A DNA stretch of 64,000 nucleotides from Sphingobium fuliginis (GTDB lineage Bacteria > Pseudomonadota > Alphaproteobacteria > Sphingomonadales > Sphingomonadaceae): assembly GCF_004152845.1 (NCBI RefSeq), contig NZ_SEON01000011.1, forward strand, positions 1 through 64,000, given 5' to 3'. The notes beneath the pieces were generated by a model. That model searched no databases and had not been told where the DNA came from. It worked only from the letters and a program-made list of their open reading frames with translations. Shown one piece after another: positions 32,207 through 54,965 of the stretch. Both the position numbers and the translations under genes were made by a program. Position 1 is the first letter of the stretch. Each line of letters opens with the position of its first letter.

Positions 32207-32863
32207 ATGAGCGACGGCGTGGGCCAGGATGTTGAGCGCGAAACGCTTTCAGACACCGATTTCAAGCGGGAACTGGCGGCGGTCATCCCCCATCTGCGCG
32301 CCTTTGGACGGTCCCTGTCCGGCAATCGCGATGTCGCGGACGATCTGGTGCAGGAAACGCTGCTGAAGGCCTGGGCCGCGCGCAGCCGCTTCCAGGCGGG
32401 CACCAACATGCGTGCCTGGACCTTCATCATCCTGCGCAATCATTATCTGTCGCAGATGCGCCGTTCCCGCTTCCGGGGCGATTGGGACGATCTGGCGGCC
32501 GACCGCCTGCTTGCCGCGCCCGCCGGGCAGGACAAGCATGTCGAACTGTCCGACATGCAGCGCGCCTTGCTGCAATTGCCGCAGCCCCAGCGAGAGGCGC
32601 TGATCCTGGTCGGCGCGGGCGGCTTCGCCTATGAGGAAGCCGCCGAAATCTGCGGCGTCGCCGTGGGCACCATCAAGAGCCGCGTCGCCCGCGGCCGCGC
32701 CGCGCTGGAGCAGATATTGGAAAATGGCGAACTGCCATCCCGCCGCAGCCAGGAAAGCAGCGACGCCGCGGTGCTGGACGAGATCATGGACGATGTCGAC
32801 CGGTTGAGCCGGGGCCGGGAATCCCGGGAAACAGGTGAAGATACCGACTCCGACGTGGAGTGA
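32207..32863 (+). CDS. ecfG: General stress response ECF sigma factor EcfG
   Basis: A 218-aa ECF sigma factor (ECF15 type). Region 2 includes NRDVADDLVQETLLKAWAAR and RAWTFIILRNHYLSQMRRSR; region 4 includes LPQPQREALILVGAGGFAYE and GVAVGTIKSRVARGRAAL. The C-terminus is acidic and Ser-rich. It recognises GGAAC-N16/17-CGTT promoters of stress genes. ATG 32207 is preferred because GAAGGGG lies upstream; an ATG at 32147 would add 20 residues that are not typical of the family. Confidence 0.93.
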   Translation: MSDGVGQDVERETLSDTDFKRELAAVIPHLRAFGRSLSGNRDVADDLVQETLLKAWAARSRFQAGTNMRAWTFIILRNHYLSQMRRSRFRGDWDDLAADRLLAAPAGQDKHVELSDMQRALLQLPQPQREALILVGAGGFAYEEAAEICGVAVGTIKSRVARGRAALEQILENGELPSRRSQESSDAAVLDEIMDDVDRLSRGRESRETGEDTDSDVE

Positions 32864-42951: not shown

Positions 42952-43800
42952 TCAAGCCAGTGGATCCAGGGTCCCAAGCGCCGCGACCAGTCCCAGGATG
43001 AGGACCGCCAGGCTGGTTTCCGCCAGCAGCGACAGGCGCAGATGGGCAACGCCTCCGTTCCTCTCCAGCATCGGCGTCAACCACCAGCGATTGGCGGCGG
43101 CGAGCAGCAGCATGCCGGCGAACAGCGCCAGCTTGGTGAGAAGCAGCCAGCCATAAAGGCCATGCAGAAGCGCGGGCAGTTGGGCTATACCGACGATCAT
43201 CACTGCGTTGAATGCGCCGGTCAGGATCAGCGTCGCGACGAAGATCGTGCCGAACAGGGAGAAACGCTCCAGCATATGGGCGGTTCGTCCGCTCTCCCTT
43301 CCCGACAGCACGGCATGCAGCAAGGCCAGCAGCGCACCGAACCATCCGGCGGCGGCCAGCATATGCAGCGCGTCCGCGATGCGGTGGGCGCTGCCGGCAA
43401 GGCCTTCGCTGGCGGCGGCATGGCCCGACCAGGCCAGGGTTGCGGCGGCGATGGCGGCGGGCAGGGCCAGGGCGGCGTTCCATCCGGCGCCCTGCCGGAG
43501 CAGCAGCGGCAGGATCGACAGCAGCGCGACGGCCCGCACCGCCAGCACCATGCCAAGCGGCGTTTCCTTGAGCAATATCCCGACGACGCCCCAGTCGGGG
43601 GGCAGGAACGGGGTTCCCGCCATGGCCGCCGCGCTGGCGAGCAGCCACAGGGCGGAGAGCGCAAGCCCGGCCACCGCCAGCGCGCCGATCGCCCCGCGCC
43701 GCGCGCTTCCGCCCATGCTCCACCAGAACAGCGGCAGGCCGGCAAGCGCTGCAAGATCGGCGTACAGGGCGAAACGGGCAGTGACGAGAAGCCAGTCCAT
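42952..43800 (-). CDS. copD: Copper resistance protein CopD
   Basis: A 282-aa inner-membrane protein with about eight helices, proposed to take copper across the cytoplasmic membrane together with CopC. Conserved family parts include WSGHAAASEGLAG, HRIADALHMLAAAGWFGALL and LTGAFNAVMIVG with GWLLLTKLALFAGMLLLAA. The start at 43800 was set from the first helix; the longer open frame upstream overlaps copC in another frame and is not real. It lies five bases after copC on the same strand. Confidence 0.88.
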   Translation of the reverse strand: MDWLLVTARFALYADLAALAGLPLFWWSMGGSARRGAIGALAVAGLALSALWLLASAAAMAGTPFLPPDWGVVGILLKETPLGMVLAVRAVALLSILPLLLRQGAGWNAALALPAAIAAATLAWSGHAAASEGLAGSAHRIADALHMLAAAGWFGALLALLHAVLSGRESGRTAHMLERFSLFGTIFVATLILTGAFNAVMIVGIAQLPALLHGLYGWLLLTKLALFAGMLLLAAANRWWLTPMLERNGGVAHLRLSLLAETSLAVLILGLVAALGTLDPLA

Positions 43801-43805
43801 CGACC

Positions 43806-44198
43806 TTATTTGACCGAGAAGCTGTATTTGCCCGCGATCTTGTGCTGGTCGGCGCCGACGATGTGCCAGTTGAGGTCGTAGCTGCCGGCCGGCAGCGCCC
43901 GGGGCAGGGTGACGATCATGGTCTTCCCGTCCCCGTCGACCGCTGTCTTGAAGCCCTTGATCGGCATCGGCGCATGATCGGCCATGCCCGGCATGCCGGT
44001 CATGGTGAGGTCCACGCCGCTCAAGGGCGCGAGCAGCTTTTCGGAAAAGCTGAGCGTCAGCCGGGTGGGTTTGGAGACGGTGGCGTCCGCCGCCGGGCTG
44101 GAGGAAAGCAGCTTCGGATGCGCCAGCGCTGCGGAGGGGAGGGCGGCAAGGCCGAAGGCGGCGGCCAGCATGGCGGGGGTGAACAGGTTGCGACGCAT
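43806..44198 (-). CDS. copC: Periplasmic copper-binding protein CopC
   Basis: A 130-aa periplasmic protein with a signal peptide (residues 1-26, cleaved after ALA). The mature N-terminus begins HPKLLSSSPAAD; the N-terminal His is a copper ligand in CopC, and the second half holds WHIVGADQHKIAG with another ligand His. The single Met-containing segment MTGMPGMADHAPMP may offer a Cu(I) site. It forms an operon with copD and is divergent from the sigma-factor operon, sharing the promoter region 44199-44399. Confidence 0.92.
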   Translation of the reverse strand: MRRNLFTPAMLAAAFGLAALPSAALAHPKLLSSSPAADATVSKPTRLTLSFSEKLLAPLSGVDLTMTGMPGMADHAPMPIKGFKTAVDGDGKTMIVTLPRALPAGSYDLNWHIVGADQHKIAGKYSFSVK

Positions 44199-44232
44199 GA
44201 TGATAGGCTCCCGATAGATTGCGGTTACGGAC

Positions 44233-44260
44233 CATTACGCATTGCGCTTTCCGACCCCTC
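44233..44260 (-). promoter_or_regulatory. Putative ECF promoter for copCD
   Basis: Read on the minus strand, this 28-base sequence starts GAGGGGTCGG and ends GCGTAATG. It matches the oppositely oriented sequence at 44286-44313 at 24 of 28 positions. The end of the element is about 35 bases before the copC start codon. The likely promoter elements are the GGGGTCGG block and CGTA about 12 bases later, probably read by the copper-locus ECF sigma factor. Confidence 0.6.
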
Positions 44261-44285
44261 GACCGGAGCGCAGGAATTTTTGCAT

Positions 44286-44313
44286 GAGGGGTCGGTAAGC
44301 GCCCTGCGTATTG
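44286..44313 (+). promoter_or_regulatory. Putative ECF promoter for the cnrYXH-like/copAB operon
   Basis: GAGGGGTCGG at the start and GCGTATTG at the end, with 24 of 28 bases identical to the divergent copy at 44233-44260. It lies about 87 bases upstream of the small membrane protein gene that begins the operon. Two matching sequences pointing toward two functionally linked operons are strong evidence for shared control. Confidence 0.6.
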
Positions 44314-44399
44314 CAGGCGACAGGACATGGTGTTTGTGGTGATTTCCGGCGTGGCGGATGATGCCCGCCGGCTTGAAGCCGCTATGTGGAGTGAAAGTG

Positions 44400-44678
44400 A
44401 TGAGCGACCTCGATCAGCTATTGGGCCAGGTGGCCGCCCAGATGCGGAACGCCCCCGCCGATCCGCGTCTGGAAAGGCTGGAGGACGCGGTGATGGCAGG
44501 CGTCGTCTCGCGCCGCGAACGGGCCGTGGCGCGGCGCAGCCTCGCGCTGGCGGGGATCGTCGCGGTCGGCATCGGGTGGATCGGCAGCGTGGTGCCCGGC
44601 AGCCCGGCGCAGGCGGCGTCCCGGCCCGCCATCATCGGCATGTCGGATTACGCACCCTCCCGCCTGCTGGGGCAGTGA
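44400..44678 (+). CDS. CnrY-like small membrane anti-sigma factor (putative)
   Basis: A 92-aa protein with a cytoplasmic N-terminus of about 45 residues (MSDLDQLLGQVAAQMRNAPA, with RLERLEDAVMAGV), one helix (LALAGIVAVGIGWIGSVV, about 48-65) and a short periplasmic tail. Size and topology match CnrY/NccY, single-helix anti-sigma factors that bind their ECF sigma factor with the N-terminus and the metal sensor in the periplasm. The ATG at 44400 has GGAGTG upstream; an ATG at 44358 is in frame. Direct sequence resemblance to CnrY is low and the assignment rests on gene order. Confidence 0.65.
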   Translation: MSDLDQLLGQVAAQMRNAPADPRLERLEDAVMAGVVSRRERAVARRSLALAGIVAVGIGWIGSVVPGSPAQAASRPAIIGMSDYAPSRLLGQ

Positions 44679-44698
44679 GTCATGCGGGGGGTAAGGGC

Positions 44699-45154
44699 AT
44701 GAGGGGAACCGCACGCTATGGGCTGGTCGCGCTGGTCGCCTTTGCAGCGGCGCTGGCGGCGGTGCTGGTGGCGCGGGCCTGGATCGCGCCGGAACCGCGC
44801 GTCGAAAGCGAGGTTCATGCCCTGATCCACCAGAAGCTGGAACTGGATGCGGCGCAGGAACGGCGCATTCACGCGCTGGAGGCTGATTTCGCGAGGCGGC
44901 GCGAGGCCATGGAGGCGGAGATGCGCGCCGACAATGCGCGACTGGCGCAGGCGATCGCGGCGGAGCATGGCTATGGCCCGAAAGTGGCCGAGGCCGTCGA
45001 CCGGTCGCATCACGTCATGGGCATGCTTCAGAAGGAGACGCTGAAGCATATCTTCGCGATGCGCGCCGTGCTGCGGCCGGATCAGGCGGCGCAGTTCGAC
45101 GCCGCCATCGTCAAGGCGCTGACCCGGCCAGCCCCCGTCCCGCCGGAGCGGTGA
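44699..45154 (+). CDS. CnrX-like periplasmic metal sensor
   Basis: A 151-aa protein with an N-terminal membrane anchor (residues 8-30) and an all-helical periplasmic domain. The residues that bind Ni or Co in CnrX (His42, His46, Glu63, His119, Met123) have counterparts at His40, His44, Glu61, His117 and Met121, with exactly the same spacing. The motifs are VHALIHQKLELDAAQ and KHIFAMRAVLRPDQ. In CnrX, metal binding releases the anti-sigma factor. The operon here continues into copper genes, so the metal sensed is likely copper, or copper among others. The stop overlaps the sigma factor start. Confidence 0.85.
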   Translation: MRGTARYGLVALVAFAAALAAVLVARAWIAPEPRVESEVHALIHQKLELDAAQERRIHALEADFARRREAMEAEMRADNARLAQAIAAEHGYGPKVAEAVDRSHHVMGMLQKETLKHIFAMRAVLRPDQAAQFDAAIVKALTRPAPVPPER

Positions 45155-45732
45155 GCCCGTCGCTCACCGAACGCGGCGATGCAGAGCTGGCCGCGCTGGC
45201 GCTCGCCGGGCAGCAGAGCGCCTATGGCGAGCTGATGCGCCGCCATCGCGACGCCGTGTTCCGTCTGGCGCGGGGACATGCGGGCGATGCGACGGAGGCG
45301 CTCGACATCACGCAGGAGACGTTCATCTCCGCCTTCGCCGCGCTTGGCCGCTATGATGGCGCGCGGCCCTTCCGGCTGTGGATCGCGCGGATCGCGGTGA
45401 ATAAATGCCGTGACTGGGCGCGGCGGCGGGCGGTGCGGCGCTTCTTCACCTTCGCCCGGCCGATCGAGGAAGCAGGCGCCGTGGCGGACGGCATGCCGAC
45501 GCCGGAGGAGGCTGTCCAGTCCCGGGCGGAGCTGGCGCATATCCATGCAGCCATCGCCGCATTGCCCGGCAATCTCAAGGACGTGCTGGTTCTGCGCGCC
45601 ATCGAGGGAATGAGCCAGGCGGAGGCGGCGCAGATATTGGGCATCAGCGAGAAAGCCGTCGAAACACGCCTCTACAGGGCGCGCAACAAATTGGCCGAAG
45701 GATTGAGGGATGGGGCGACGGGCCGCGTATAG
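45151..45732 (+). CDS. CnrH-like ECF sigma factor of the copper locus
   Basis: A 193-aa ECF sigma factor. Region 2 contains ALDITQETFISAFAALGRYD and RPFRLWIARIAVNKCRDWAR; region 4 contains LPGNLKDVLVLRAIEGMSQA and LGISEKAVETRLYRARNKL. It starts with GTG overlapping the stop of the CnrX-like sensor, as in the CnrYXH order. It ends 30 bases before copA and probably transcribes its own operon and copCD from the paired 28-base sequences at 44233-44313. Confidence 0.88.
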   Translation: MSPSLTERGDAELAALALAGQQSAYGELMRRHRDAVFRLARGHAGDATEALDITQETFISAFAALGRYDGARPFRLWIARIAVNKCRDWARRRAVRRFFTFARPIEEAGAVADGMPTPEEAVQSRAELAHIHAAIAALPGNLKDVLVLRAIEGMSQAEAAQILGISEKAVETRLYRARNKLAEGLRDGATGRV

Positions 45733-45762
45733 GGGGAAACCGTCCTTATTGCAGAGCTGTCC

Positions 45763-47529
45763 ATGGCCTTCACCCTTCCCGATGTCGATCGCCGCACCCT
45801 CGTCCGCAATCTTGGCGGACTGGGCGGCGCGCTGGCGCTGAGCCGGGTTTTCCCCGCCTGGGCGCGGAGCGGAACGGCCGGCCTGACCCCGGCCCCGGCC
45901 CCAGCCCCGGAAGTGCTGAGCGGCGAGGCCATCGCCCTGACCGTGGCGGAGGGGCATTTTTCGACCGGCGGGCGTTCGGCGCACGCGGTGATGATCAACG
46001 GCACGCTGCCCGCGCCGCTCATCCGCCTCAAGGAAGGGCAGAATGTCCGCCTGTCCGTCACCAACCGGCTGCGGGAGGATACGTCGATCCACTGGCACGG
46101 CCTGATCGTGCCCTTCCAGATGGACGGGGTGCCGGGGATCAGCTTTCCCGGCATCCGCCCCGGCGAGACCTTCACCTATGAATTCCCCATCCGGCAGTCC
46201 GGCACCTACTGGTATCACAGCCATTCCGGCATGCAGGAGGCCGTCGGCCATTATGGGCCGATCGTGATCGATCCGGCGGGAACCGATCCGGTGGAAGCCA
46301 CGCGCGAGCATGTCCTCATCCTGTCCGACTGGAGCCCGGTCCACCCGCACGTCCTGCTGAAGCGCCTCAAACAGATGGGCGGCTATTTCAACATGCAGAA
46401 GCAGACCTTGGCGGGGCTGCTGGCCGGGAAGGACCAGAACGCGAAGGAGCGCATGGAATGGGGCGCCATGCGGATGGACCCGACCGACATATCCGACATC
46501 ACCGGATCGACCTACAGCTTTCTGGTGAACGGCCATGGCACGGCGGAGAACTGGACCGGCCTCTTCACGCCGGGCGAGCGGGTGCGGCTGCGCATCATCA
46601 ATGCGGCGGCCATGACCAACTTCAACCTGCGGCTGCCGGGCCTGCCGATGACGGTGGTGCAGTGCGACGGCCAGCATGTGCAGCCGGTCGAGACCGACGA
46701 GTTCCAGATCGGCATCGCGGAAACCTATGATGTGGTGGTGCAGCCCGGGGAAGCGAAGCCCTACGCCCTGATCGCGGAAGCGATAGACCGATCGGGCCTC
46801 GTTCGGGCGACCCTGGCGCCGCGCATGGGCCTTGCGGCGGAGGTGCCGCCGCTGCGCGCCCGACCGCTGCTGGGCATGAAGGACATGGGCATGGACATGT
46901 CCGGAATGGACATGGGGCAGGGCGGAGTCATCGATCTCAGCCAGCCCGCCAATGAAGGCATGGCCGGCCATTCGATGAAGATGCGCGACAGGTCGGTGGC
47001 GCCGCAGGTGAAGATGGGGCCCGGCGTCGCGACGCTCTCGCCCATGCCGGCCGACAGGACCGCCGACCGCCCGACGGGGCTGGAGACCGTCGACCATCGC
47101 GTGCTGACCTATGCCGATCTCAAATCGCTGACTCCCCATGCGGACAGGCGTCCGCCGACCCGGACGCTCGACATCCACCTGACCGCGAACATGGAGCGCT
47201 ATATGTGGTCCTTCGACGGGGTGAAGCTGTCGGATGGGGCGGACCCCATTCCCTTCCGCCATGGGGAGCGGGTGCGCGTCAACCTGATCAACGACACGAT
47301 GATGCCGCACCCGATCCATCTGCATGGCCATTTCTTCGAACTGGTGACTGGCGCGGGCGACCATAATCCGCTCAAGCACACGGTGAACGTGCTGCCGGGG
47401 GGAAAGGTGAGTTTCGACCTTACCGCCGACGCGCTGGGCGATTGGGCCTTTCACTGCCATATGCTGATGCACATGCACACGGGGATGATGCGCGTCGTGA
47501 CCGTGCGGTACGCGGGGGACGCGGCATGA
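45763..47529 (+). CDS. copA: Multicopper oxidase CopA
   Basis: A 588-aa periplasmic copper resistance oxidase. The N-terminus has a Tat signal (DRRTLVRNLGG, then a hydrophobic stretch). Copper ligands are HWHGL (His110, His112), YHSHSG (His152, His154), HPIHLHGHFFEL and HCHMLMHMHTGMM near the C-terminus, which together make the type 1 and trinuclear sites. A Met-rich stretch at about residues 368-385 (GMKDMGMDMSGMDMG) is a likely Cu(I) binding loop. It oxidises Cu(I) to the less toxic Cu(II). The stop overlaps the copB start. Confidence 0.94.
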   Translation: MAFTLPDVDRRTLVRNLGGLGGALALSRVFPAWARSGTAGLTPAPAPAPEVLSGEAIALTVAEGHFSTGGRSAHAVMINGTLPAPLIRLKEGQNVRLSVTNRLREDTSIHWHGLIVPFQMDGVPGISFPGIRPGETFTYEFPIRQSGTYWYHSHSGMQEAVGHYGPIVIDPAGTDPVEATREHVLILSDWSPVHPHVLLKRLKQMGGYFNMQKQTLAGLLAGKDQNAKERMEWGAMRMDPTDISDITGSTYSFLVNGHGTAENWTGLFTPGERVRLRIINAAAMTNFNLRLPGLPMTVVQCDGQHVQPVETDEFQIGIAETYDVVVQPGEAKPYALIAEAIDRSGLVRATLAPRMGLAAEVPPLRARPLLGMKDMGMDMSGMDMGQGGVIDLSQPANEGMAGHSMKMRDRSVAPQVKMGPGVATLSPMPADRTADRPTGLETVDHRVLTYADLKSLTPHADRRPPTRTLDIHLTANMERYMWSFDGVKLSDGADPIPFRHGERVRVNLINDTMMPHPIHLHGHFFELVTGAGDHNPLKHTVNVLPGGKVSFDLTADALGDWAFHCHMLMHMHTGMMRVVTVRYAGDAA

Positions 47530-48440
47530 AGGCGCCGGTTTGCCTGGCCGCGCTGCTGCTCGCTTCCGGCGCCTTGCCGGCCTGGGCGCAGGATCATGGC
47601 GGGATGGACCACGGCGCCATGCAGCAGGAGGATCATTCCGACCATCCGCCTGCCGGGGACGCCCATGCCGGTCACGGCCAGCCCGCGCCCGATGACGGCG
47701 CGCCCGAGGGGGTAGCCCCTCCCATGCCGTCCGATCATGCCTCGGAAGCCTTTTACAACCCCGCCGAAATGGCGCGCGCCCGTGCCGCCATGCTCAAGGA
47801 AAGCGGCGGCATGACCTTCTCCCGGCTGATGCTCGACCGGCTCGAATATCGCATGGGCAGGGGCGCCGACGGCTATCATTGGGAAGGGGAGGGCTGGATA
47901 GGCGGCGACATCGACCGTTTCGCCTTCAAGACCGAAGGAGAGGGCGAATTCGGCGGCCCGCTGGAAAGCGCGGAGGTGCAGGCGCTTTACAGCCGCGCCA
48001 TCGATCCCTGGTTCAACCTGGAAGCCGGCGTCCGCCACGACATTCGCCCCGATCCGCAGCGGACTTATGCGGTGGTGGGGATAGAGGGCCTCGCCCCCTA
48101 TTGGTTCGAGGTCGGCGCGCAGGCCTTTCTGTCCGACAAGGGCGACGCGCATCTGCGGCTGGAGGGCAGCTACGACCAGCGCATTACCCAGCGCCTGATC
48201 CTGCAACCGGCGGTGGAGATCAACCTCGCGGCGCAGGACGTGCCGGAACTCGGCATCGGTTCGGGTCTTTCCGACATCGAGTTGGGATTGCGCCTGCGCT
48301 ATGAATTCGCGCGTGAATTCGCGCCCTATGTCGGGGTCAACTGGGAACGCAAGCTGGGCGACACCGCCCGCTTCACCCGGCGGGATGGAGAGCGGGCTGC
48401 AACGACGAGCCTGGTGATGGGCGTGCGCTTCTGGTTCTGA
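47526..48440 (+). CDS. copB: Outer-membrane copper resistance protein CopB
   Basis: A 304-aa outer-membrane protein. A signal peptide (residues 1-21, ending AWA) is followed by a His/Met/Asp-rich section (HGGMDHGAMQQEDHSDH and HAGHG) that can bind copper, and then the CopB beta-barrel with LMLDRLEYR, YHWEGEGWIGGD and ending in RFWF, a typical outer-membrane C-terminal Phe. ATG 47526 overlaps the copA stop. It probably works with CopA in periplasmic copper sequestration. Confidence 0.92.
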   Translation: MKAPVCLAALLLASGALPAWAQDHGGMDHGAMQQEDHSDHPPAGDAHAGHGQPAPDDGAPEGVAPPMPSDHASEAFYNPAEMARARAAMLKESGGMTFSRLMLDRLEYRMGRGADGYHWEGEGWIGGDIDRFAFKTEGEGEFGGPLESAEVQALYSRAIDPWFNLEAGVRHDIRPDPQRTYAVVGIEGLAPYWFEVGAQAFLSDKGDAHLRLEGSYDQRITQRLILQPAVEINLAAQDVPELGIGSGLSDIELGLRLRYEFAREFAPYVGVNWERKLGDTARFTRRDGERAATTSLVMGVRFWF

Positions 48441-52892: not shown

Positions 52893-53558
52893 ATGCGTCT
52901 GCTGATCGTCGAAGATGAACCTAGCCTTGGGCAACAGCTCCGCAACACGCTGGAAGGCGCGGGCTATGCCGTGGATCTGGCCGACGATGGCGAGGACGGG
53001 CATTTTCTGGGTGCGACCGAAAGCTATGACGCGGTCGTCCTGGATCTCGGCCTGCCCACCATCGACGGCCTTACCGTGCTGGACCGCTGGCGCAAGGAGG
53101 GACGCAGCTTCCCGGTGCTGGTGCTGACGGCGCGCGACAGCTGGTCAGACAAGGTGGCCGGGCTGGACGCGGGCGCCGACGATTATCTTGCCAAGCCTTT
53201 CCAGAGCGAGGAACTGATCGCCCGCCTGCGCGCGCTGATCCGCCGCGCATCGGGCAATGCGTCGAGCGAACTGACGGCGGGCGACGTAAGGCTGGATACG
53301 CGCTCGGGCAAGGTGACGCTGAAGGGCGAGCCGGTGAAGCTCACCGCGCAGGAATATAAGCTGCTGTCCTACCTCCTCCACCACAAGGGCAAGGTGGTGA
53401 GCCGCACCGAATTGATCGAGCATATCTACGATCAGGATTTCGACCGCGATTCCAATACGATCGAAGTGTTCGTGACCCGCATCCGCAAGAAGCTGGGCGC
53501 GGACGTCATCACGACGATCCGGGGCCTGGGCTACAGCCTGGATGAACCGGGGCGGTAA
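52893..53558 (+). CDS. OmpR/PhoP-type response regulator
   Basis: A 221-aa regulator. The receiver has the acidic pair IVEDEP, Asp51 in VVLDLGLP and the Lys in DDYLAKPF. The C-terminal winged helix has LTAQEYKLLSYLLHHKGKVV, RTELIEHIYDQD, NTIEVFVTRIRKKLG and TIRGLGYSL. It pairs with the sensor kinase downstream. The presence of a PepSY protein upstream is typical of PhoPQ-like systems in this class, but the stimulus is unknown. Confidence 0.92.
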   Translation: MRLLIVEDEPSLGQQLRNTLEGAGYAVDLADDGEDGHFLGATESYDAVVLDLGLPTIDGLTVLDRWRKEGRSFPVLVLTARDSWSDKVAGLDAGADDYLAKPFQSEELIARLRALIRRASGNASSELTAGDVRLDTRSGKVTLKGEPVKLTAQEYKLLSYLLHHKGKVVSRTELIEHIYDQDFDRDSNTIEVFVTRIRKKLGADVITTIRGLGYSLDEPGR

Positions 53559-53567
53559 TCGCTCATC

Positions 53568-53594
53568 TTCCGTTCGGGCTTCGGGCGAACGGAA
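53568..53594 (+). other. Stem-loop between response regulator and sensor kinase genes
   Basis: TTCCGTTCG and CGAACGGAA form a perfect 9-bp stem around a 9-base loop (GGCTTCGGG). No T run follows, so it is probably not a full terminator; an RNA stability or attenuation element between the two genes is more likely. Confidence 0.55.
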
Positions 53595-53612
53595 ACAAAG
53601 GCTTTTGCGTCT

Positions 53613-54965
53613 TTGACTGACCAGCCGCAAGTTAGCTCGACCGGATCGCTCAGCCGCCGCATGATCGGCATCGCGGCGCTGTGGATCAGCCTGCTGCTGC
53701 TGGGCGGCGGGCTGGCACTGGATCGGGTGCTGTCCGACGCGATCACGCGCAATTTCGACGACGGCATGAACTATGTCCTGACCGCCATGATCGCGTCGGC
53801 CGAGATCGGGCCGGACGGAGAGGTGCTGTTCAACCGCGAGCCTGCCGACCAGCGTTTCCTGGAGCCCAATAGCGGCATCTATTACCAGATCAGCGGCAAG
53901 GGGCATGAGGATTGGCGGTCGCGTTCGCTGTGGGACCGGGCGCTGAAGGTCAATCCGGAGCATCATGACGACGCCCCGCACATCTATGACAGCAACCAGT
54001 TTCCGGGCGAAGACCTGCGCGTGATGGAACGCAGCATCATCCTGCCCGGATCGGACACGCGCTGGATGTTCATGGTGGCGCAGGCGCGCGAGGGACTGGA
54101 CGCGCAGATCAAGACGCTGCGATCGACCCTGTTCGAGAGCTTTGCCCTGCTGGCGCTGGGGCTGATCGTGCTGGCGACGTTGCAGACCATTTACGGGCTG
54201 CGGCCGCTGCGCAAGGTGCGGCATGAAATCGTGCGGATGCGCGCGGGCGAGAAGAATCGCGTGACCGAGCCGATGCCCGCCGAGGTGCTGCCCATGGTCG
54301 AGGAACTGAATGCCCTGCTCGCTCATAATGAGCGGCAGGCGGAGGAAGCGCGGACCCATGCGGGCAATCTCGCCCATGCACTCAAGACGCCGCTGACCGT
54401 GATCATGAACGCCGCGACCGCGCAATCGCCCGATCTGGGCGATACGGTCATCCGGGAAGCGACGACGATGCGACGGCAGGTCGACCACCATCTGGCGCGG
54501 GCGCGCGCGGTCGGACGGCGCGGCGCGGCGCAGAGCCGGGCGGAAGTATGGGCCAGCCTGGATGCGGTGGAAAGGGCCGTCCAGCGGCTCTATCCCGAAG
54601 TCCGCATCGACATGGATGGCGACAAGGAAGCCGCCGTGCGGGTCGAACGGCAGGACCTGGACGAGATGCTGGGCAACCTGATCGAGAACGCCGCCAAATA
54701 TGGCGGGGGCAGCGTGTTCGCGACCGTAGGGCGCAAGGGGGCGATGGTCGAAATCCTGGTGGAGGATGACGGCACGGGCATTCCGCAGGCAGACCGCACG
54801 CGCATTTTCGACCGGGGCGTAAGGCTGGATTCGGGGAAGCCGGGAACAGGCCTTGGCCTCGCCATCGTGCGGGACGTCGCGGAAATCTATGGCGGGTCCG
54901 TCGCGCTGGAGGAAAGCGACGATCTGGGCGGAGTGCTGGTCCGGCTGCGGCTGCCCGCGGCCTGA
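53613..54965 (+). CDS. Sensor histidine kinase (PhoQ-like)
   Basis: A 450-aa inner-membrane kinase. Helix 1 is at about residues 20-40, a periplasmic sensor domain spans 41-165, helix 2 is at 167-190, then HAMP, HisKA with His255 in LAHALKTPLTVIMN, and HATPase_c with NLIENAAKYG, DDGTGI and GTGLGLAIV. All kinase boxes are intact. Start is TTG at 53613. It overlaps the YbaN-like gene by three bases and follows its cognate regulator. Confidence 0.9.
   Translation: MTDQPQVSSTGSLSRRMIGIAALWISLLLLGGGLALDRVLSDAITRNFDDGMNYVLTAMIASAEIGPDGEVLFNREPADQRFLEPNSGIYYQISGKGHEDWRSRSLWDRALKVNPEHHDDAPHIYDSNQFPGEDLRVMERSIILPGSDTRWMFMVAQAREGLDAQIKTLRSTLFESFALLALGLIVLATLQTIYGLRPLRKVRHEIVRMRAGEKNRVTEPMPAEVLPMVEELNALLAHNERQAEEARTHAGNLAHALKTPLTVIMNAATAQSPDLGDTVIREATTMRRQVDHHLARARAVGRRGAAQSRAEVWASLDAVERAVQRLYPEVRIDMDGDKEAAVRVERQDLDEMLGNLIENAAKYGGGSVFATVGRKGAMVEILVEDDGTGIPQADRTRIFDRGVRLDSGKPGTGLGLAIVRDVAEIYGGSVALEESDDLGGVLVRLRLPAA

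Follow-up and report, generated by a model that had tools for sequence, protein, structure and literature searches.

The window, that is, the whole stretch of 64,000 nucleotides of Sphingobium fuliginis DNA that was analyzed, contains three consecutive genes on the forward strand (44400-45732), here named Y, X and H, which are flanked by the divergent pair copCD on one side and by copAB downstream. On the reverse strand, copC (43806-44198) encodes a periplasmic copper-binding protein (NF033814 copper_CopC, 124.4 bits vs. a cut-off of 95; PF04234), with copD (42952-43800) behind it encoding an inner-membrane copper resistance protein (PF05425, 1.9e-20, 73.6 bits vs. a cut-off of 32.1). The gene for Y (44400-44678) encodes a protein of 92 aa, a predicted membrane-anchored anti-sigma factor in the position of CnrY; the gene for X (44699-45154) encodes a periplasmic metal sensor of 151 aa; and the gene for H (45151-45732, GTG start) encodes a CnrH-type ECF sigma factor of 193 aa with 45% identity to CnrH and overlaps the X gene by 4 bases. 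The end of H is separated by 30 bases from the start of copA (45763-47529, forward strand), which encodes a periplasmic multicopper oxidase (TIGR01480, 780.4 bits vs. a cut-off of 478.95) and is followed by copB (47520-48440, forward strand), encoding an outer-membrane copper resistance protein (PF05275, 1.1e-92). No match to genes resembling cnrA, cnrB or cnrC was found within the window. A further ECF-type sigma factor stretch, with 26-31% identity to H and CnrH, is located at 32303-32728.

CnrYXH, a sigma/anti-sigma switch that senses metal in the periplasm, has been studied in detail and is known for nickel and cobalt. X is homologous to CnrX and its predicted fold is the CnrX fold, with an N-terminal helix, presumably the membrane anchor, and a periplasmic helical hairpin; about residues 31-151 make up the periplasmic part. 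In the alignment, residues H40, H44, E61, H117 and M121 of X correspond to the CnrX ligands H42, H46, E63, H119 and M123. The best PDB sequence for H was CnrH (4.9e-38), the next best yielding 5e-21; H contains a single Cys and ends shortly after region 4. The sequence-only reading had recognized a CnrYXH-type set of sigma factor, anti-sigma factor and sensor at 44400-45732, and this is borne out by the homology of X and H, the predicted fold, the ligands and the gene order. Its expectation that the five residues would come together in one site is consistent with the predicted CnrX fold and the alignment, as far as these go. A local accident or a chance spacing of the ligands was considered and rejected on account of the homology and the conserved context.

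The assignment of Y is based on hydropathy, which shows a single helix with a peak of 2.06 at residue 47 (CnrY: 2.02 at residue 46), and on the C-terminal motif (A/S)PxxL, which is common to Y and CnrY. Y matched no NCBIfam family, including the CnrY model NF033790, against which CnrY itself scored 139 bits as a control, and BLAST yielded no similarity between Y and CnrY. A profile comparison of the two resulted in a probability of 74% and a pairwise E-value of 2.8e-5 over 33 columns; a relationship of Y to CnrY/NccY by profile comparison is only suggestive.

A comparison of intergenic regions revealed a mirror pair of elements, RAGGG-N16-CGTA, between copC and Y, one for each direction. In the window, they have the form GAGGG-N16-CGTA and are located at 44236-44260 (reverse strand, predicted H-dependent promoter of copCD) and at 44286-44310 (forward strand, predicted H-dependent promoter of Y-X-H); a third one, the predicted H-dependent promoter of copAB, lies within the last codons of H (45705-45729, forward strand), with its -10 running into the H stop codon. 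Among 78 distinct copC/Y regions drawn from 102 loci, the N16 element was present on the copC strand in 78, on the Y strand in 76 and on both strands in 76, to which one region with N17 on the Y strand may be added, these regions being related by descent and therefore not 78 independent cases. In 200 mononucleotide shuffles per region the element occurred at a rate of 0.17% per strand and never on both strands. The spacing between the mirror elements ranged from 4 to 68 bases; the spacer to CGTA was 16 bases in all matched cases but one.

Further counts were obtained from 80 named loci, the best 80 of at least 180 confirmed ones, nearly all of which are from sphingomonad genera, with a few MAGs without a genus. 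Within these best 80 of at least 180 loci the element precedes Y in 79 of 80 cases, copC in 75 of 75 and copA in 74 of 77, and copG-like genes in only two of 21. The 1.08 Mb of sequence covered by the same 80 loci yielded 263 matches to the element compared with 16 to the reversed pattern, and 230 of the 263 precede Y, copC, copA or copG. Thirteen of the 33 left-over sites were read, and in two loci (L033 and L050) the element was found before a copA gene. In three Sphingopyxis loci (L092, L096 and L102) the element precedes a P-type ATPase gene, the copper type of which was judged from motifs. An additional element in L096 (position 530, reverse strand) lies before a cytochrome c-like gene, as read from the sequence, and in L081 (1031-4383) a second, H-like sigma factor stretch is surrounded by five minus-strand matches. 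The leader of Y (44318-44402) exceeds that of the close relatives L036 and L038 by about 60 bases; an RNA leader element at this place was rejected (fold z -1.59, with 17 of 200 shuffles being as good), and Rfam yielded no match at E 0.1 in 43700-46000.

On pMOL28 of Cupriavidus metallidurans, AAGGG-N17-CGTATA is found before cnrY and GAGGG-N17-CGTATA before cnrC. The cnr transcription start sites have been reported at 24 bases upstream of cnrY and at 25 bases upstream of cnrC (PMC9045368), and, computed from these reported starts to about 1 base, both cnr -35 elements begin at -34 and both CGTATA motifs end 7 bases before the start. The element in the window is thus the cnr promoter element minus one spacer base, that is, it shares the -35 GAGGG (AAGGG before cnrY) and the -10 CGTA and differs in a spacer of 16 bases instead of the 17 in Cupriavidus. 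From their position, their conservation and their match to the CnrH promoters we infer that H probably directs transcription from these elements. By analogy with the cnr promoters, transcripts would begin near 44319 and 45738 on the forward strand and near 44227 on the reverse strand. The arrangement resembles that of CnrYXH in that Y and the first structural gene after H are each preceded by a promoter, but the copper set has an extra third promoter, the divergent one of copCD. The same source describes an additional RpoD promoter before cnrY (PMC9045368).

With regard to gene context, H, copA, copB and copC are all at the expected places in 71 of the 80 named loci (the best 80 of at least 180 confirmed) and a CopD homologue in 64 of the 80. 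The sequence-only reading had predicted the same order with copABCD in other sphingomonads, which was thus found, and it had described the set as wired to copper genes without cnrCBA nearby, which stands as well, given that the order recurs and that a shared ECF promoter element precedes the copper genes. Of the nine exceptions, L054, L086, L095 and L105 are short stretches of 5.7 to 9.0 kb; copC and copD were not found in L039, L059 and L065, nor copA and copB in L107. The ninth exception is L072 (a Sphingomonas laterariae contig with complete flanks), which, like L012, has a copper-clade YXH set but no cop genes in the stretch; next to this set are an RND-like gene (23-26% to CnrA) and a further sigma-like stretch. 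In L159 (3320-4024), a family member in whose stretch copC was not found, the mirror promoter opposite Y precedes a methyltransferase gene, which is followed by a CopG-like gene; the divergent output thus differs between lineages.

A count of 153 loci, a locus being scored as 'cop' if any part of its stretch matched CopA or CopB by tblastn, gave 137 with copA or copB, 8 with copC, copD or copG only, 5 with a CnrC-like pump gene and 3 with none of these. Some loci are contained twice in this count (e.g., L137/L171 and L146/L174), the number of distinct X sequences being 122, and L113-L133, L002, L140, L156 and L157 were omitted from it. Among 20 further stretches, some from low-scoring members of the family and some from other families of the class, 19 were cop-linked and one (L174) pump-linked. 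The pump-linked loci comprise two Cupriavidus plasmids (L134 and L135), L146/L174 (another family of the same phylum), L158 (same class) and six more, including L180, which is the same locus as L146. L158 (G935 C2:1742000) has a Glu/Ala sensor within the same class, together with CnrH-like and CnrC-like genes; no clear RAGGG-N16/17-CGTA element was found at the expected places in this locus.

X-like genes were found in 106 of 249 genomes of the family (E 1e-6), and in 5 of 385 genomes sampled from the class and 17 of 398 from the phylum (E 1e-8), each of these samples including the genome under study. The remaining 143 of the 249 family genomes had no match to X, so that the family as a whole is not dependent on the YXH switch. 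A search for Glu/Ala sensors in the family with P0155 as query (E 1e-20) matched 13 of 249 genomes, and all 12 loci examined were of the His/Met type beside cop genes. With CnrX as query, six loci were obtained from 6 of 200 genomes, all of the Glu/Ala type and located beside a CnrC-like gene.

The sensors were compared using 297 distinct X sequences, P0184 and P0185 having been dropped beforehand. In a tree rooted on a CnrX-type sequence, 230 of them form one clade (the copper clade) with a support of 0.904. His at position 104 and Met at position 107 are present in all 230 sequences of this clade, whereas Glu and Ala are found there in all 67 CnrX-type sequences. Position 53 (Gln vs. Glu, the exceptions being one Pro and one gap) and position 129 (Gln in the copper clade, His in the CnrX type) also split the two groups, and His90 occurs in 208 of the 230 copper-clade sequences, Pro being found at this position in 67 of 67 CnrX-type ones. 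Of the 297 sequences 122 had a known genome context, namely 118 from the copper clade (108 with copA or copB, 8 with copC, copD or copG only, 2 with neither) and four from the CnrX-type group, all of which are pump-linked. Further loci, 18 in total and partly repeating those already counted, were of the Glu/Ala type if pump-linked (six of six) and of the His/Met type if cop-linked (12 of 12).

Among the 108 distinct cop-linked X sequences 12 columns are invariant, including H104, M107, H44, E61 and H117; of the other two ligand positions, 40 is Asp in two sequences and 121 is Ile in one. H104 and M107 are predicted to lie, together with H117 and M121, on a helix spanning residues 94-123. Contact of H104 and M107 with the CnrX-type site is unlikely within one chain because they are 10 to 17 residues away from H117 and M121; they may form a second site or take part in dimer contacts. 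The split at 104 and 107 corresponds to one node of the tree and is therefore by itself no proof of a functional cause; it could reflect ancestry.

The genome contains a second, diverged YXH set on contig C20, with the layout copD-copC<>Y-X-H-copA and an X with 60% identity to the one in the window. All three promoter elements recur in this second set (C20:164365-165764), and about 9 kb away, at 174297, lies a DUF411 (CopG-like) gene that also has an element. As both sets have one type of promoter, cross-talk between the two sigma factors is likely. Another DUF411/CopG-like gene (C17:192423) lies on a contig which carries neither set, with an element 29 bases before its start. The two DUF411 proteins are related to the solved entries 6wis/6wje, and DUF411 proteins include the copper protein CopG.

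In the genome as a whole the element pattern yielded 21 matches compared with 90 for the reversed control, so the pattern as such is not enriched; in eight of the 21 cases the gene behind is copC, Y or copA of one of the two sets or one of the two DUF411 genes on C17 and C20. The fuller form GAGGG-N15-GCGTA occurs at 10 sites, of which seven are among those eight; behind the other three no clear gene is seen. The eighth is one of 11 less complete sites, and the other ten of these precede various genes or no clear gene. The 13 matches away from cop genes are poorer matches overall, some of them lying before genes without an evident copper role. Three CzcA-type pumps scored above the family cut-off in the genome (contigs C18 and C20), and none of the 21 element sites is near them. 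With N17 spacing 17 matches were obtained, all on contigs other than those carrying the two cop sets or the three CzcA-type pumps.

The set is best read as a copper-responsive sister lineage of CnrYXH with periplasmic copper resistance as its output, not as the nickel/cobalt system itself, to which reading we assign a probability of roughly 0.78. The roles of CopA, CopB, CopC, CopD and CopG-like proteins in copper defence are known from their families. By analogy with CnrYXH, Y would hold sigma factor H at the membrane in the absence of excess copper, with X, anchored by its N-terminal helix, keeping Y in this state. Periplasmic copper would bind X at the CnrX-type site (H40, H44, E61, H117 and M121), H104 and M107 would set or add copper selectivity, and the metal-induced change would cross the membrane to Y and free H. 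RNA polymerase would then be taken by H to the GAGGG-N16-CGTA promoters of copCD, of its own operon (a positive feedback) and of copAB, and CopA, CopB, CopC and CopD, along with the two CopG-like proteins encoded elsewhere in the genome, would lower periplasmic copper toxicity. For CnrYXH itself, signaling from the metal on X via Y to the release of H has been described (PMC7689651).

The metal sensed by X is most likely copper, judging from gene context, because the best-matching elements precede copper genes in the two sets, at unlinked sites of the same genome and in related genera. In C. metallidurans the cnr cluster as a whole was reported to be induced by copper (PMC7563307), and entry 3epv is, according to its title, a crystal form of CnrX with bound copper; the scaffold can therefore take copper. 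Met123 of CnrX is reportedly needed for the nickel and cobalt response (PMC7689651), and as the five nickel/cobalt ligands of CnrX, including the counterpart of Met123, are kept in X, a response of X to nickel or cobalt is possible. X might accordingly be a multi-metal or Ni(II)/Co(II) sensor, with the copper genes being induced within a general periplasmic metal alarm. Though the copper induction of cnr itself would fit this alternative, it is considered unlikely, given that seven of the 10 fuller elements in the genome lie before copper-type genes or adjoining YXH operons, that the CzcA-type pumps have no element nearby, and that the pair H104/M107, which is suited to copper, is absent from all 67 CnrX-type sequences.

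CopRS/PcoRS two-component systems control copABCD, i.e., the same kind of targets. The copper genes could be controlled by another regulator (CopRS/CusRS or CueR), with YXH being a passenger that controls only itself, and a response regulator and histidine kinase pair is indeed located about 4.5 kb after copB (52893-54965). This pair scored below the CopR and CopS cut-offs (206.9 vs. 279.2 bits and 106.4 vs. 292.55 bits, respectively), the CopR cut-off (TIGR01387) was reached by none of the 42 response-regulator matches in the genome, and the ECF element lies directly before copC and copA, all of which makes such a passenger role very improbable. Among the models listed, the nearest to the pair are PmrA/QseB and PhoQ, with scores below every cut-off. 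That the inverted repeat at 44251-44295, with its perfect 10-base arms in the window, is the operator of a dimeric repressor and not a pair of back-to-back ECF -35 elements has a negligible probability and was rejected: in related loci the two elements may be as close as 4 or as far apart as 68 bases, but each has its CGTA at a distance of 16 in every matched case except one, and a third copy occurs singly before copA.

The set in the window shares with CnrYXH of C. metallidurans pMOL28, which governs CnrCBA efflux, the Y-X-H order, the CnrX fold, the five ligands and a CnrH-like sigma factor. It differs in having copABCD and copG-like genes as output instead of an RND pump (cnrCBA/nccCBA), in H104/M107 in place of Glu/Ala, and in a Y that falls outside the CnrY model; NccYXH was compared only by the solved NccX chain and by name. 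Unlike in CopRS/PcoRS control, a sigma/anti-sigma switch adjoins the cop genes, and no response regulator at the level of CopR is found in the genome. CorE of Myxococcus xanthus is described in a 2023 review of copper signaling as a copper ECF sigma factor which drives copper genes including a multicopper oxidase and senses copper itself through a Cys-rich C-terminal extension and a CxC between sigma2 and sigma4 (PMC10141476), whereas H lacks a Cys-rich extension, has one Cys and is paired with a membrane sensor. SigF-NrsF of Caulobacter crescentus is a copper-induced alphaproteobacterial ECF system; its anti-sigma factor and targets differ, and pcoAB is not named in its regulon in the available text of the report (PMC8224329).

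In the literature accessible to us we found no alphaproteobacterial system of the CnrYXH type linked with copper genes, and the ECF reclassification (10.1093/nar/gkaa1229) may already tabulate such a context. A periplasmic heavy metal sensor and cop genes are named for one Sphingobium genome in the available part of PMC7355620 and are not connected there. Both CnrYXH and a copper ECF system (CorE, which works differently) being known, CnrYXH-type control of cop genes would, from the comparisons made, represent a new variant.

More tentatively, the copper clade may be a copper-sensing branch of CnrX in which H104-M107, with His90, form a second copper-selective site or retune the old one, so that a nickel/cobalt membrane switch became a main copper switch for many sphingomonads and their alphaproteobacterial relatives, with no clear CopR needed. 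If so, the choice of metal in the CnrX family would rest on a few swappable positions (53, 104, 107 and 129). What sets metal selectivity in this scaffold could be studied as a natural experiment in such a sister lineage, which keeps the ligands, has copper genes as outputs and a regulon that can be read, and differs by two fixed residues; the promoter element lets copper regulons be read from genomes. The finding also points to a way in which copABCD may be controlled in many alphaproteobacteria that have no recognizable CopRS.
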